64,000 nucleotides of DNA from Pseudorhodobacter sp. E13. Lineage in GTDB: Bacteria; Pseudomonadota; Alphaproteobacteria; Rhodobacterales; Rhodobacteraceae. The stretch lies in the NCBI RefSeq assembly GCF_003991405.1, contig NZ_RPEN01000157.1, positions 248,001 through 312,000 of the forward strand. Reading direction: 5' to 3'. Below, piece after piece: positions 1-23,600 of the stretch. The position numbers and the translations under genes are program-made. The notes under the pieces were generated by a model that had not been told where the DNA came from, made no database searches, and saw only the letters and a list, made by a program, of their open reading frames with translations. Each line of letters opens with the position of its first letter. Positions within the stretch are counted from its first letter, which is position 1.

Positions 1-1013
<1,013 letters not shown>

Positions 1014-18273: not shown

Positions 18274-19392
18274 TTAAACGCGCATCGGCATCACGACATA
18301 AATCGCAGAGGTGTCATTACCCTCGCGCATCAAGGTCGGATCACCGGAAGAGTTGAACATGAACACCGCGTTCTCGCGGTCCACTTGGCTTGCGATTTCC
18401 AGCAGGTATTTGGCGTTAAAACCAATTTCCAGACGCTCATCGCCGTAAGCTACGGCCAGTTCTTCCTCGGCGGCACCGGAATCCGGGGCGTTGACCGACA
18501 GAACCAGACGGTCCTCATCCAAGGACAGCTTCACCGCGCGTGAGCGTTCGGACGAAACCGTGGCCACACGGTCCACCGCCTTGGCAAACTCCGAGGCATC
18601 CACCTCCAGCCGCTTGGTGTTCCCGGTGGGAATGACGCGGGTGTAATCGGGGAATGTGCCGTCAATGACCTTGGAGGTCAGCGAAATCGCCGGCGTTGCA
18701 AAGCGCACTTTGGTTTCCGACACCGATACGGCGATGATCGCGTCGTCGTCGTCCAGCAATTTGCGCAGCTCATTCACGGTTTTGCGCGGCACGATCACGC
18801 CGGGCATACCGTTCGCGCCTTCGGGCAAGGGCGCATCAATCCGGGCCAGGCGGTGCCCATCGGTGGCAACGCAACGCAGCACCGGGCCATCTTCGCCGGT
18901 GGCAACATGCATATAGACGCCGTTCAGATAATAGCGGGTTTCCTCGGTTGAAATGGCAAATTTCGCCTTGTCGAACAGCCGCCGCAATTGCGGGGCCGGG
19001 GCCGAGAAATTAGAGGAATATTCCGAACTTGCCATGACGGGAAAGTCTTCTTTCGGCAAGGTCGCAAGGTTGAAGTTCGACCGGCCCGCCGTAACGGTCA
19101 AACGGCCAGAGGCGGCATCTTCTGCCAGATTGACCAAGGCGCCATCGGGCAATTTGCGCACAATCTCATGCAGCATGACGGCCGAAACCGTAGTGGCCCC
19201 TGCGCGTTCCACCACGGCGGGGGCACGATCGACCACTTCGATATCCAGATCGGTGGCGCGGAACGAAACGGTATCGCCTTCCGCCTCGATCAGCACATTG
19301 GCAAGGATCGGGATCGTGTTGCGGCGCTCCACGACTGACTGGGCCTGGCTGACTGCTTTCAGAAGCGTGCCGCGTTCAATGCTGATCTTCAT
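18274..19392 (-). CDS. dnaN: DNA polymerase III beta sliding clamp
   Basis: DnaN forms the ring clamp that tethers the replicative polymerase and recruits many repair proteins. The 372-residue length matches the family. The N-terminus MKISIERGTLLKAVSQAQ and the segment VERRNTIPILANVL are diagnostic, and the C-terminus ends with the conserved YVVMPMRV. Three clamp subdomains fit the length. It follows dnaA after a 159-base gap (19393-19551) in which I see no clear terminator. Confidence 0.98.
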   Translation of the reverse strand: MKISIERGTLLKAVSQAQSVVERRNTIPILANVLIEAEGDTVSFRATDLDIEVVDRAPAVVERAGATTVSAVMLHEIVRKLPDGALVNLAEDAASGRLTVTAGRSNFNLATLPKEDFPVMASSEYSSNFSAPAPQLRRLFDKAKFAISTEETRYYLNGVYMHVATGEDGPVLRCVATDGHRLARIDAPLPEGANGMPGVIVPRKTVNELRKLLDDDDAIIAVSVSETKVRFATPAISLTSKVIDGTFPDYTRVIPTGNTKRLEVDASEFAKAVDRVATVSSERSRAVKLSLDEDRLVLSVNAPDSGAAEEELAVAYGDERLEIGFNAKYLLEIASQVDRENAVFMFNSSGDPTLMREGNDTSAIYVVMPMRV

Positions 19393-19551
19393 GTTCCGTC
19401 CCTTTGCCCGTCTTGGTGCTGGCTGTTCACCCTTTTGGCCACGCCGCAGGGAGGCCGAAGTTAGCGGGTTTTTTCCGTTTCACAAGGGGTATGACGCCGC
19501 GCGCCTTGGTTCAAGCGGCAAAACGACATGCTTTGTGGCATCCCGACCCCG

Positions 19552-20901
19552 TTACCCTTGCAACAACCGCTTGAGCATTTGCAGATCATCTGCAAGCTGG
19601 CTGTCGGCGGTCATCAATTCTTCAATCTTTCGCACGCCATGCATGATGGTTGTGTGGTCGCGCCCGCCAAAGCGCCGCCCAATATCGGGCAGGCTGCGGC
19701 TGGTCAGTTGCTTTGCCAGATACATCGCAATCTGGCGGGGCCGGGCGATGGTGCGCACCCGCTTCGGGCCGATCATATCGGACAGGCGGATGTTGTAATG
19801 CTCTGCCACTTTGCGCTGAATTTCCTCAATCGTGACTTTGCGATCCGAGGCGCGCAGAATATCGGCAAGGCAATCCTGCGTCAGATCCAGCGTAATCTCG
19901 CGGCCCACAAGGCTGGCAAAGGCGAACAACCGGGTCAGCGCGCCTTCCAGCACGCGGACATTGGTTGAAATGCGATGCGCAAGGAATTCCAGCACACCGG
20001 GGGCGATCACAAGGTCGCGATATTGGGTGTGATAGAATTCGGCCTTTTGTTGCAGGATACCAAGGCGCAATTCGTAATCGGTGGGGTGTAGATCAACCAC
20101 AAGCCCGCATTGCAGCCGCGATTTGATCCGTTCTTCAAGGCCCTTGATCTCTCCCGGGGCGCGGTCGGCGGAAATCACGATCTGTTTGTTCTGGTCCACC
20201 AGCGCGTTGAAGGTGTGGAAGAACTCTTCTTGGGTGCTGTCCTTGCCCGCGATGAATTGCACATCATCCACCATCAGCACATCGACAGAGCGGAACAGCT
20301 CTTTGAAATCCATGACCTGCCGTTCGCGAAGTGCTTGCACAAAGCGATACATGAACTGTTCTGCTGAAAGATACAGCACGCGCAGATCGGGTTGGCGCGT
20401 TTGCAATTCATGCGCGATGGCATGCATCAGGTGGGTTTTGCCCAGCCCGACGCCGCCATACAGAAACAGCGGGTTAAAGGTGACGGGGCCACCTTCGGCG
20501 ACACGGCGCGCGGCGGCATGGGCAAGCTCGTTCGGTTTGCCGACCACGAAACTGTCAAAGGTAAAGCGCGCATCCAGCGGGGCGCCGGGCACCTCATCCT
20601 CATTGCTGGCACGTTTGCGCGGGGCTGGTTCCGCCGCTTTGGCTGGTTTGGGCGCGCTGATACGATCCAGCGCAAATTCGATGCGGTCAACTTCGGCGCC
20701 GGAGCGGTGCAGGTGGTGCAGAATCTGGTCAGAGAAATTCCGTTTGACCCAATCGCCAAAGAACGTGGTCGGGACAGAAAAGCTGGCAACACCGTCACGC
20801 AGTTCCGACAGTTTCAGGGGTTCGATCCAAGTGATGTAATTGTCTTTGCCCACCCGCTTGCGCAGGTCTTCCCGAATTTCCACCCAACCATCGTTCGTCA
20901 T
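19552..20901 (-). CDS. dnaA: Chromosomal replication initiator protein DnaA
   Basis: DnaA binds and opens the origin and also acts as a transcription factor. The 449-residue protein has the DnaB-interacting domain I (WVEIREDLRKRVG, YITWIEPLK), a charged linker at about 82-106, the AAA+ domain with Walker A GGVGLGKTH (149-157) and Walker B VLMVDDVQFI, and a C-terminal DNA-binding domain IV with the signature GGRDHTTIMHGVRKIE. The start codon is preceded by a weak ribosome-binding site, and the leader upstream is strongly structured (see 20902-21390). Confidence 0.98.
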   Translation of the reverse strand: MTNDGWVEIREDLRKRVGKDNYITWIEPLKLSELRDGVASFSVPTTFFGDWVKRNFSDQILHHLHRSGAEVDRIEFALDRISAPKPAKAAEPAPRKRASNEDEVPGAPLDARFTFDSFVVGKPNELAHAAARRVAEGGPVTFNPLFLYGGVGLGKTHLMHAIAHELQTRQPDLRVLYLSAEQFMYRFVQALRERQVMDFKELFRSVDVLMVDDVQFIAGKDSTQEEFFHTFNALVDQNKQIVISADRAPGEIKGLEERIKSRLQCGLVVDLHPTDYELRLGILQQKAEFYHTQYRDLVIAPGVLEFLAHRISTNVRVLEGALTRLFAFASLVGREITLDLTQDCLADILRASDRKVTIEEIQRKVAEHYNIRLSDMIGPKRVRTIARPRQIAMYLAKQLTSRSLPDIGRRFGGRDHTTIMHGVRKIEELMTADSQLADDLQMLKRLLQG

Positions 20902-21011
20902 ACTTCTACCCGTTCATCGACTTCGCCCCCTCCCGTTGTTTCCGGGTGAGGGGCCTTTGTGCGCCCGACAACGGCCTGACTGAATGATGCCGCAAGGGGG
21001 CACCACGGGAC

Positions 21012-21080
21012 AAAAAAACGCAGTCCGCTACAGGCAAGCTGTATCGGATGAAACCCAATAAACCACAGACTGCGTTTTCG
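21012..21080 (-). ncRNA. Terminator-like structured RNA upstream of dnaA; short transcript or attenuator candidate
   Basis: On the minus strand an 11-bp stem (AAAACGCAGTC with GACTGCGTTTT) encloses 42 bases. These contain a second hairpin, TACAG-CTTGC-CTGTA, extendable by CCG/CGG. The outer stem runs directly into seven T residues. This is the shape of a small RNA ending in its own terminator, or of a terminator inside the dnaA leader about 110 bases before its ATG. No promoter was identified, so expression is unproven. Confidence 0.4.
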
Positions 21081-21330
21081 CGCAGCACATGTTATCGGGC
21101 GAACCCGTCCTAATGCAGAAGGCACCGCGTAAGCGGGGCAAAGCAGCCAAACACATTCAGAACGCGGTCACGTCTTGTCCCCCAGGACGAAGTGAATCGC
21201 TTGGTGAAACTAGCAACCTGTTGCGGGGCAGAGCAACCGAACTTCTCTGTTGACAGAGAATTGACCGCCGCGAATCTGACAGGCTCGGCAAAATGGCAAC
21301 GGCTGGCGTTTTTTGACCCCTTTGGGCATG

Positions 21331-21357
21331 AAAAAAGGCGCATCCAAGATGCGCCTT
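21331..21357 (-). terminator. Rho-independent terminator of rpsT
   Basis: Read on the minus strand, AAGGCGCATC pairs with GATGCGCCTT across a TTG loop, giving a 10-bp stem that ends in a run of six T. It lies 34 bases after the rpsT stop codon and separates rpsT from the dnaA control region. Confidence 0.88.
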
Positions 21358-21390
21358 AAATCAGCCTAACCCGTTGATGGGTAATGGATT

Positions 21391-21666
21391 TTAGGAAGCG
21401 GGTGCCGCCAGCGCCTTCACGCGCGACGACAGACGCGAGATTTTGCGCGACACGGTGTTCTTGTGCAAAACGCCCTTGCTGACACCACGGGCCAATTCCG
21501 GCTGAGCGGCGCGCAGAGCGGCAGCAGCAGCGGCCTGATCGCCAGATGCAAGCGCCTCTTCTACCTTGCGCAGGAAGGTGCGGATGCGCGAGCGGCGTGC
21601 TTTGTTCACGTCATAACGGGCTTCGGACTGGCGAGCGCGTTTTTTGGACTGGGAAGTATTAGCCAT
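21391..21666 (-). CDS. rpsT: 30S ribosomal protein S20
   Basis: S20 binds 16S rRNA early in small-subunit assembly. The 91-residue protein is very basic and helical, with the diagnostic start [17 protein letters not shown] and the segment [19 protein letters not shown] near the C-terminus. It is transcribed toward dnaA and ends in its own terminator. The 243-base gap upstream (21667-21909) must hold the promoter; it contains a small inverted repeat around 21728-21745 but no clear consensus. Confidence 0.97.
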
Positions 21667-21909
21667 GGGTCGAATTTCCTAACGTCTGGATCAGTTGTAT
21701 GTCGGCATGCACAATAGACCCAAGACTTCCGCCCATATCAGCGGAAATGATTCTTGCCTTAAGCGGGCCCACGCGCATTTCAGGGGCGCTGTTACGGCAA
21801 ATGCGCGCGAAAGGGAAGGGCAAAAGCCAAGGCATCCAAGGCTGACACGCTGATTTTGGCGCAATTCGTGGCAATTCGGCCCATCAAGCCGCGCCCGCCC
21901 TGCACGGGA

Positions 21910-22686
21910 TCAGCGGTCGCGGAACTGCGGTGTGCGCTTTTCAAGGAAGGCGGCCATGCCTTCTTTTTGATCCTCGGTCGCAAAAAGCGAATGGAACAAG
22001 CGGCGTTCAAACAAGAGCCCTTCGCGCAGGCTGGTTTCATAGGATTGGTTCACCGCCTCTTTCGCCGCCATCGCTGACAGCAAGGATTTCTCGGCGATCT
22101 TGGTGGCGGCTTTCTTGGCCTCCTCCAGCAGGTTTTTGGCCGGAACCACGCGCGACACAAGGCCAGAGCGTTCAGCCTCGGCGGCATCCATGTTGCGGCC
22201 GGTCAGGTGCATATCCATGGATTTCGACTTGCCGACAAAGCGGGTCAGGCGCTGGCTGCCGCCAAAACCGGCGATGACGCCAAGGTTGATCTCGGGCTGG
22301 CCAAATTTCGCGGTATCAGCGGCGATGATGAAATCGCAGCACATCGCAAGTTCACAGCCGCCACCCAGCGCATAGCCAGACACCGCCGCGATGATCGGCT
22401 TACGGATCTGAAGCATGGCATCGGTAATCGGGGCGAACAGATTGGCGGTATAGACATCGACAAAGGACAGCTCTGCCATTTCCTTGATGTCCGCGCCTGC
22501 GGCAAAGGCCTTTTCCGAACCGGTGATGATGATGCAGCGCACCTTGTCATTGGCGTCTGCGGCCTCCAGCACGGTGGCCAGTTCCGAACACATTTTCACA
22601 TTCAGCGCGTTCAGCGCCTCGGGCCGGTTCAGGCGAATCAGGGCGATATAATCCTCGATCTCGACGATCAGTGTTTCATAGGCCAT
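21910..22686 (-). CDS. Enoyl-CoA hydratase (crotonase family)
   Basis: This is a 258-residue crotonase-fold enzyme that hydrates 2-enoyl-CoA in fatty-acid or amino-acid degradation. The oxyanion-hole segment is [11 protein letters not shown], and the second catalytic region is [22 protein letters not shown], with glutamates at the expected places further on ([20 protein letters not shown]). The product is very likely short-chain enoyl-CoA hydratase. It lies between mutM and rpsT on the same strand, an arrangement often seen near dnaA in Rhodobacteraceae. Confidence 0.94.
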
Positions 22687-22748
22687 CTGAGCTTCCTTTG
22701 GCTGAGGTTTGAGCGGGACTCTGTAACAGGGATGGGGGCAGGATCAAG

Positions 22749-23600
22749 TCATCTCTGGCAGGTGGGGCAGAAGAAGGATGACCGGCCAGATTGGACGATC
22801 CGTGCGATTTTGGCGCTGCAACCGGGGGTGACGCAGGGTTCACCTTCGCGGCCGTAGGTGCGGAAATTATGCTGGAAATAGCCCAGTTCGCCATCCGCCT
22901 GCCGGTAATCCCGCAAAGAGGAGCCGCCCGCCTCGATCGCTTCGGCCAGCACATCGCGGATCAGGGGCACCAGCCCTGCCACCGTTTTGGCAGACAGCTT
23001 GCCTGCGGGGCGAGCAGGGTGCAGGCCCGCGCGGTAAAGCACCTCACAGACATAGATATTTCCAAGGCCCGCGACGACCTGCTGATCCAGCAAAGCCGAT
23101 TTGATCGGCGTGGCACGCCCTTTCAGGCGGGCTGTCAGATATGTCTCATTAAAGCCATTGCCAAAGGGTTCCGGCCCGATGCTGGCCAGAAGCGGGTGCG
23201 CATCGCCCAAAGCGGTTTCCAGCAGCTCCATTGCGCCAAAGCGGCGGGCATCGTTGAAGGTGATGCGCGCGCCGCCCGCCATATCGAGCACCACATGGTC
23301 ATGTTTTGCAGGGGCGGGGTGGTCATGGTGAAACGCCCCCACCTGCGCCCCGGAAATCAGGATGCGGCCGGACATACCAAGGTGAATAAGCAGTGATTCC
23401 CCGGTGGACAGATCGGCCAGAATATACTTGGACCGCCGCCGCAGCCCCAGAACCCGCGCGCCCGTCAACCGTTCGGCCATGCGTGGCGGGAAGGGCCAGC
23501 GCAGATCGGGGCGGTTGACGGCAGCGCTTTGGATGGTTTGACCCGTCATCACAGGTTCCATCCCACGGCGGACCGTTTCAACTTCGGGCAGTTCGGGCAT
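22749..23600 (-). CDS. mutM: Formamidopyrimidine-DNA glycosylase MutM (Fpg)
   Basis: MutM excises 8-oxoguanine and ring-opened purines and nicks the strand. The 283-residue enzyme begins [13 protein letters not shown], giving the catalytic proline (P2) and glutamate (E3) after Met removal. The C-terminal zinc finger has cysteines spaced C-x4-C-x16-C-x2-C (CVTPGC ... CPTC). With mutY at 3580, both arms of the 8-oxoG repair system are in this window. Its start overlaps the end of the next gene upstream by 23 bases. Confidence 0.97.

Follow-up and report, generated by a model that had tools for sequence, protein, structure and literature searches.

A terminator-like hairpin in the dnaA leader of Pseudorhodobacter sp. 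E13: a candidate attenuator in the Rhodobacteraceae

UpsM of Rhodobacter sphaeroides, as described in PMC5089854, is a small RNA derived from a 5' UTR, namely the 268-nt mraZ/dcw leader. Its layout comprises a promoter, an RNA of about 200 nt, a Rho-independent terminator and, about 60 nt further on, the gene (PMC5089854). The RNA is supported by Northern blots, RACE and RNA-seq, its processing needs Hfq and RNase E, and by the authors' estimate some 1 in 100 polymerases passes the terminator (PMC5089854). The authors also report trans effects and propose a pairing that could break the terminator, with partial read-through (PMC5089854).

The dnaA 5' UTR of Caulobacter, 155 nt long, has been probed and is structured; the account given in PMC8443254 places no terminator in it. 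This 5' UTR lowers translation initiation (PMC8443254, PMC4489657) and most of it is dispensable for the starvation response, a point on which PMC8443254 corrects PMC4489657. Control of Caulobacter dnaA by CcrM methylation has been described as well (PMC4287350, PMC2877005). Among ctrA promoters of Rhodobacterales, only 45% carry GANTC, and the authors doubt that methylation state plays a major role in the order (PMC8116508); in an earlier survey, the number of GANTC sites per 500-bp promoter gave no basis for deriving methylation control (PMC2877005). Little was found in the open-licence literature on the control of DnaA synthesis in Rhodobacteraceae. None of the matches listed for that literature reports a small RNA or a terminator at the dnaA gene of this family. 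For the terms looked for, the part of a Paracoccus small-RNA paper drawn on here (PMC5107571) shows neither an S20 nor a replication-initiation neighbour.

The dnaA leader of Pseudorhodobacter sp. E13 is here likened to UpsM, from sequence alone. Both belong to the same family, and in both a terminator-like hairpin lies in the leader with a promoter upstream, represented here by a conserved promoter-like block with a predicted start; the dnaA leader would be a long one, with an RNA of about 200 nt, a terminator and the gene downstream, in this case 110 nt on. It differs from UpsM in the gene concerned, and neither a pair of GANTC sites nor a long-range stem of the P1 kind (see below) is mentioned for UpsM in the part of PMC5089854 drawn on. 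The mraZ leader of the same organism (L194, 1130-1180) shows, by eye, the inverted repeat GGCGGATTG...CAATCCGCC and, after it, GTTGTCCG; this may be the place of the UpsM terminator. With the Caulobacter dnaA leader, compared by description only (PMC8443254, PMC4489657), the present one shares its alphaproteobacterial origin, a structured character, a 5' end held in a helix (here the proposed P1) at a junction and a stem near the start codon; there too, the relatives come from one family, the Caulobacteraceae. What sets it apart is the terminator-like hairpin in the leader, whereas the 155-nt Caulobacter 5' UTR is described without one.

The dnaA locus and the hairpin before the T run

The window, i.e. 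the whole stretch of DNA analysed, comprises 64,000 nt; the features described below lie on its minus strand unless stated otherwise. The dnaA gene (19552-20901; Pfam Bac_DnaA, 4.7e-69) has its ATG at 20901. Upstream of it lies rpsT (21391-21666; Pfam Ribosomal_S20p, 2.1e-27), with a terminator at 21335-21357 formed by AAGGCGCATC-TTG-GATGCGCCTT and then a T run. Inspected by eye, the aligned relatives have a terminator-like hairpin at the corresponding position, L016 being without a clear T run.

The original prediction placed a second terminator-like structure about 110 bases before the dnaA start, made of an 11-bp stem that runs into seven T residues and encloses another hairpin. Each of these elements is present. 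AAAACGCAGTC (21078-21068) pairs with GACTGCGTTTT (21025-21015), giving an outer stem (21015-21078) that adjoins the T run and takes in four of the seven residues of the T7 tract (21018-21012), the predicted 3' end of a short RNA. Enclosed in it, CCGATACAG...CTGTAGCGG (21047-21025) forms eight pairs with one mismatch, and from the end of T7 to the dnaA ATG there are 110 nt. The 78-nt hairpin segment folds at -30.8 kcal/mol, compared with a shuffle mean of -19.6 (sd 2.7), or z = -4.18; none of 200 dinucleotide shuffles was as stable. The separate rpsT terminator (21357-21335) was also part of that prediction, and so was the statement that the hairpin does not serve rpsT. This holds in the sense that the hairpin is not simply the terminator of rpsT, since a conserved promoter-like block sits between the two hairpins, and such a reading is disfavoured.

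Nearer to dnaA, the predicted inverted repeat CCGTTGT (20974-20968)/ACAACGG (20939-20933) does exist; by eye, however, a hairpin GCCCCTC/GAGGGGGC is better conserved. The latter, H5 (20925-20955, GGCCCCTC/GAGGGGGC), immediately precedes the region of the dnaA start. Hairpins with other letters are seen by eye at the H5 place in relatives.

A known RNA family for the leader was looked for in Rfam and rejected. Positions 20890-21350 gave no match at E<=10, and neither the whole window nor the loci of six relatives gave one above the gathering score. The only match at E<=1 in 19000-23000 is AsdA, an antisense RNA of dnaA (RF02674), whose 36.2 bits fall short of its gathering score, 52. This match lies off the leader, within the coding sequence of dnaA (20399-20460, plus strand), and probably reflects coding similarity.

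A promoter-like block framed by GANTC sites

A first search with the region matched 15 of 61 genomes (the organism's own and 60 relatives), and mostly the DNA before the hairpin was aligned. The full sample consists of 130 oriented regions: 15 found by a match to the window DNA (window included), 26 named loci, and 29 loci plus 60 stretches that are the best matches among the matches listed for 236 genomes. The sample covers records in which dnaA is not at a contig end, and the better-matching part of the family. Without the duplicates L125, L136 and L167, and L110, which has no upstream DNA, 126 regions remain, the window among them; 120 leaders are left when L034, L036, L038, L039, L151 and L185, which lack a clear start, are set aside. 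All counts across the family ignore kinship among the sequences.

A block common to these regions has, in the consensus of 85 of them, the order TGTCAA or GAGTCAA, GAAGTTC, GGTTGC, about 17 bases, TTGCTAnCTT and GCGANTCAC...GGGGGACA. In the window, GGTTGC (21233-21238), marked by this consensus and by the profile matches, would be a -35-like element and TTGCTAGTTT (21207-21216) a -10-like element, the latter resembling the alphaproteobacterial GCTANAWC. From this layout the transcript probably starts near 21200, 299 nt before dnaA, at GCGATTC (21194-21200), which also carries a GANTC site.

A profile of the block, trained on 97 of the 126 Rhodobacteraceae dnaA upstream regions, matches 123 of them at E<=0.001, a number that rises to 125 at E<=10; of the 26 that had been missed by the first motif pattern, 21 score E<1e-6. 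The best E in 54 loci outside the Rhodobacteraceae is 0.045; for two of the 54, L079 and L081, the sequence includes no genuine upstream DNA. The motif occurs once in the organism's own genome in a search allowing up to 3 mismatches. A scan for E. coli-type promoters between hairpin and dnaA gave no site, and the same scan misses the conserved block.

The promoter-like block is framed by GANTC. In 123 regions (the 126 minus L038, L039 and L185), the pentamer is found at +2 in 122, as GATTC (107), GAGTC (10), GACTC (4) or GAATC (1), and is absent from L151. That the middle base varies suggests conservation of a methylase site. An upstream GANTC lies at about -92 to -46 in all 123 regions, compared with 8.3% of 797 background windows, and favours about -76 and -57. 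The source genus has the -76 site, without that at -57: GATTC at 21272-21276, a CcrM target by its sequence, is present in 9/9 members. The genome encodes GcrA and an adenine methylase with a CcrM-type RAMA domain (3-1013, plus strand, cut by the window start), about 20 kb from dnaA, so that conserved promoter GANTC sites, a CcrM-type methylase and a GcrA gene are all present. As described for the CcrM/GcrA promoters of Caulobacter (dnaA, ctrA P1; PMC4287350, PMC8116508), GANTC accompanies the dnaA promoter in a genome encoding both proteins; in contrast to those promoters, the sites at -76 and +2 fall outside the -10/-35 interval. Framed by GANTC as it is, the putative dnaA promoter might respond to CcrM methylation and to GcrA.

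Between the promoter-like block and dnaA, soon after a GGGGGAC motif, a rhodanese-like sequence is present in 11 of the 120 leaders (L020, L032, L119, L127, L146, L149, L153, L158, L162, L166 and L186). Its frame is free of stops over 158-159 codons in ten of them and broken in L119. Three such frames match Pfam PF00581 at 0.00014, 0.00034 and 0.0024, one of the three above the cut-off, and one frame matches PDB 2fsx at 3.2e-30. Leaders without the rhodanese gene keep the promoter-like block. A leader peptide was rejected as well: the open reading frames after the conserved GGGGGAC vary widely in length and sequence, which makes a conserved peptide unlikely.

Folds of the leader and the long-range stem P1

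The first 210 nt or so of the leader can be aligned across nine genomes of the genus. At its 5' end, the small hairpin H1 (GCGA..TCGT, 21187-21200) folds, the alternative being a local GTCC/GGAC hairpin; H1 is invariant in the genus and therefore offers no test by covariation. It is followed by the P2 domain (21103-21168), in which ACCGCGTTC (21168-21160) pairs with GGACGGGT (21110-21103) and encloses H2 (CCGC/GCGG, 21136-21125), one G-C pair of which is A-U in L006 and L007. Next come the long hairpin H3 (CCCGATAA..TTATTGGG, 21054-21099, with the apex CTGCG/CGCAG), present in the minimum-energy fold of 9/9 genus members, and the conserved terminator hairpin of the genus folds, H4 (CCGATACAG/CTGTAGCGG, 21025-21047). 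When 200 nt are folded, H3, H4 and then a T-rich tract appear in 9/9 genomes. Shorter segments retain H3 in 9/9 and H4 in 7/9, L004 and L007 being re-paired. The tract keeps its place in the relatives and is interrupted in L005, L006 and L007.

The compensatory changes that had been sought as a check were found in the genus, although few of them fall in the H4 stem. Double changes affect 8 of 46 pairs; shuffles average 3.8, with 2 of 500 reaching 8, and slid controls give 3-5. The consensus structure pairs in 91.6% of alignment cells, as against 40-52% when slid. Most of the covariation belongs to the H3 apex, where 3 of 4 pairs have changed doubly. In H4, 86.3% of cells are paired, 2 of 9 pairs are doubly changed and 5 vary on one side only, while in L009 and L010 a hairpin of other letters folds at the same place; this lends modest support to the notion that paired changes have preserved H4 among the relatives. 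On the genus alignment, the count of pair types does not go beyond shuffles (31 versus 28.6; 56/500), and the RNAalifold covariation term is about nil (+0.25), so that the support for the leader fold is real but moderate. Structure excess over the 210-nt leader is moderate too: the mean z is -2.19, to which the antisense comes close at -1.69, and the sense value is lower in 68 of 108. A covariance model of the leader finds one place in the organism's own genome (150 of 357 candidates scored) and matches 38 of 76 other loci at E<=0.001. Every one of these matches falls at the start of the leader; most of the 38 match by the 5' part alone, and 11 span at least 190 nt.

The nested stem of the original prediction is one of two exclusive folds, H3 followed by H4 being the form of the relatives. 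The two compete for the same bases, as the 3' arm of the H3 apex is contained in the 5' arm of the outer stem. In the organism's own genome the two are nearly equal in energy, at -31.1 kcal/mol for H3+H4 against -31.0 for the outer stem in a 94-nt segment, and -31.1 against -30.3 in a 93-nt segment. The two folds thus differ by 0.1-0.8 kcal/mol here, and in the eight relatives losing the H3 apex costs 2.4-8.0 kcal/mol. The outer 11-bp stem was not seen in these eight, and as an exact functional form the nested stem is not supported, being confined, of the nine genomes compared, to this one. It is also the fold that brings a stable, GC-containing hairpin directly before the T run, as H4 alone ends 6 nt short of the run unless the outer stem forms. 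By these energies, a two-state switch between H3+H4 and the outer stem is possible in this genome.

Terminator-like sites were counted across the family as simple hairpins of 16-46 nt at -9 kcal/mol or better, with an adjoining tract of at least 5 T in 6. There are 80 in the 120 leaders, compared with 27-49 in ten shuffles. Hairpins ending at +160 to +200 number 26, against 4.6 in shuffles, and of these 7 belong to the genus and 19 to others; the outer stem of the organism itself exceeds the length limit and is not among the 26. In 63 of the 120 leaders no hairpin passes the rule.

A long-range stem, P1, is proposed between the Shine-Dalgarno-like GGGGGACAAG (21174-21183), the complement of which is enriched downstream, and TTGTCCC (21007-21013), which directly follows the T tract. 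The 5' GGGGGACATG is complementary to CATGTCC, found in 21 leaders where 2.5 are expected, and to ATGTCCA, found in 19 where 1.6 are expected. CATGTC is found in 21/38 leaders with GACATG versus 2/16 with GACAGG (Fisher 0.006), and CCTGTC in 3/38 versus 9/16, respectively (Fisher 0.0003), both values uncorrected for kinship. Between +110 and +235, 29 of 115 leaders carry an exact complement to the 6-mer of their own 5' end; three control words give 4, 5 and 14, the last being half of the real count. By slice, the complement occurs in 10 leaders at +147 to +185 and in 11 at +185 to +222, compared with 0-3 in five other slices. Permutation of partners over the family gives a modest result (26/5000) and, of six slices, +155 to +195 alone is significant (1/2000). 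Two other words are in excess as well: GCTGCCA is present in 19 leaders, with 2.6 expected, and GCTGCCG in 23, with 4.9 expected.

Within the genus, none of the 12 pairs of P1 shows a double change. The ribosum-scored consensus fold drops P1 and prefers the local 5' hairpin GTCC/GGAC, from which it appears that the 5' end of the leader may be bistable. In rhodanese-bearing genomes ATGTCC can fall in rhodanese codons (PDMS in several), and the complement may there be a coding coincidence; those leaders are included in the P1 counts across the family. The position of TTGTCCC right after the T tract implies that P1 could form only in read-through transcripts.

Attenuation and other explanations

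The promoter-like block, the GANTC pair, the hairpins with some covariation, the terminator-like placement and the enrichment of P1 complements are computed; from them we infer the start site, termination, the read-through fraction, the signal and the dependence on methylation. An attenuator in the dnaA 5' leader, releasing a short RNA with partial read-through as in UpsM, is the explanation to which we give somewhat better than an even chance. The original prediction had offered a short independent RNA or an attenuator of dnaA; it is partly supported, the two options becoming two outcomes of one leader. Transcription would start near 21200 from the GANTC-framed promoter and yield a folded leader of about 185-190 nt with H1, P2/H2, H3 and H4. 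At the H4/T7 terminator a fraction of the polymerases would stop, giving the short RNA. The others would read on, whereupon TTGTCCC after the T tract could pair back with the 5' GGGACAA as P1 and fix the leader in a different conformation; translation of dnaA would begin 110 nt downstream. Because H3+H4 and the outer stem are about equal in energy in this genome, anything favouring one of them would shift read-through; a protein, another RNA or transcription speed might do so.

It is conceivable, at a good deal less than even chance, that the leader is a structured 5' UTR without termination, in which H3, H4 and P1 shape the dnaA mRNA (its stability and translation start) and the T tract is a linker before the 3' strand of P1. 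P1 would indeed enclose the tract in a closed multi-helix domain, T tracts are interrupted in 3/9 genus members, the terminator rule goes unsatisfied in the 63 leaders noted above, and the probed Caulobacter dnaA 5' UTR is described as just such a leader without a 5' UTR terminator (PMC8443254). Against this, hairpins with a T tract ending at +160 to +200 are 5-6 times over shuffles in the family, and T7 directly adjoins a strong stem in the organism's own genome. An independent small RNA acting in trans, with dnaA expressed mainly from another start, is unlikely. The anatomy would suit a small-RNA gene (promoter-like block, folded body of about 190 nt, terminator) and trans effects are reported for UpsM (PMC5089854), but the block was collected before dnaA, its motif was not found elsewhere in the genome, and no E. 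coli-type promoter lies between hairpin and dnaA, in a scan that misses the conserved block too.

Two terminator-like hairpins do stand in series from rpsT to dnaA, so that the second might back up the first, shielding dnaA from rpsT read-through. We consider this very unlikely, as the promoter-like block of dnaA lies between them and the second hairpin would stop dnaA's own transcript too. Least probable of all is a chance hairpin in a GC-rich leader: a simple terminator scan of 19000-23000 finds 8 sites where 5.3 are expected by chance, but the z value of -4.18, the covariation in the genus and the family-wide placement all oppose it.

Returning to attenuation, a wider version of the model can be imagined, in which a family-wide riboregulator combines a methylation-gated dnaA promoter, a leader closed by P1 (5' GGGGGACAUG with a distal CAUGUCC) and a regulated terminator; methylation and a cytoplasmic signal would together meter DnaA, and the RNA of about 190 nt would act in trans. 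We hold this version to be rather doubtful; if true, it would represent a new RNA class, absent from Rfam. Leader attenuators are a known kind, while the place at dnaA, the GANTC frame and P1 are, as far as seen, new.

The level of DnaA helps set the timing of chromosome replication. With a leader attenuator, frequent termination ahead of dnaA may be how the cell adjusts the amount of DnaA, and dnaA would be a second example in the Rhodobacteraceae, beside UpsM, of a cell-cycle gene read through a leader terminator. The two nearly invariant GANTC sites and the leader terminator would be two concrete, testable points of dnaA control.
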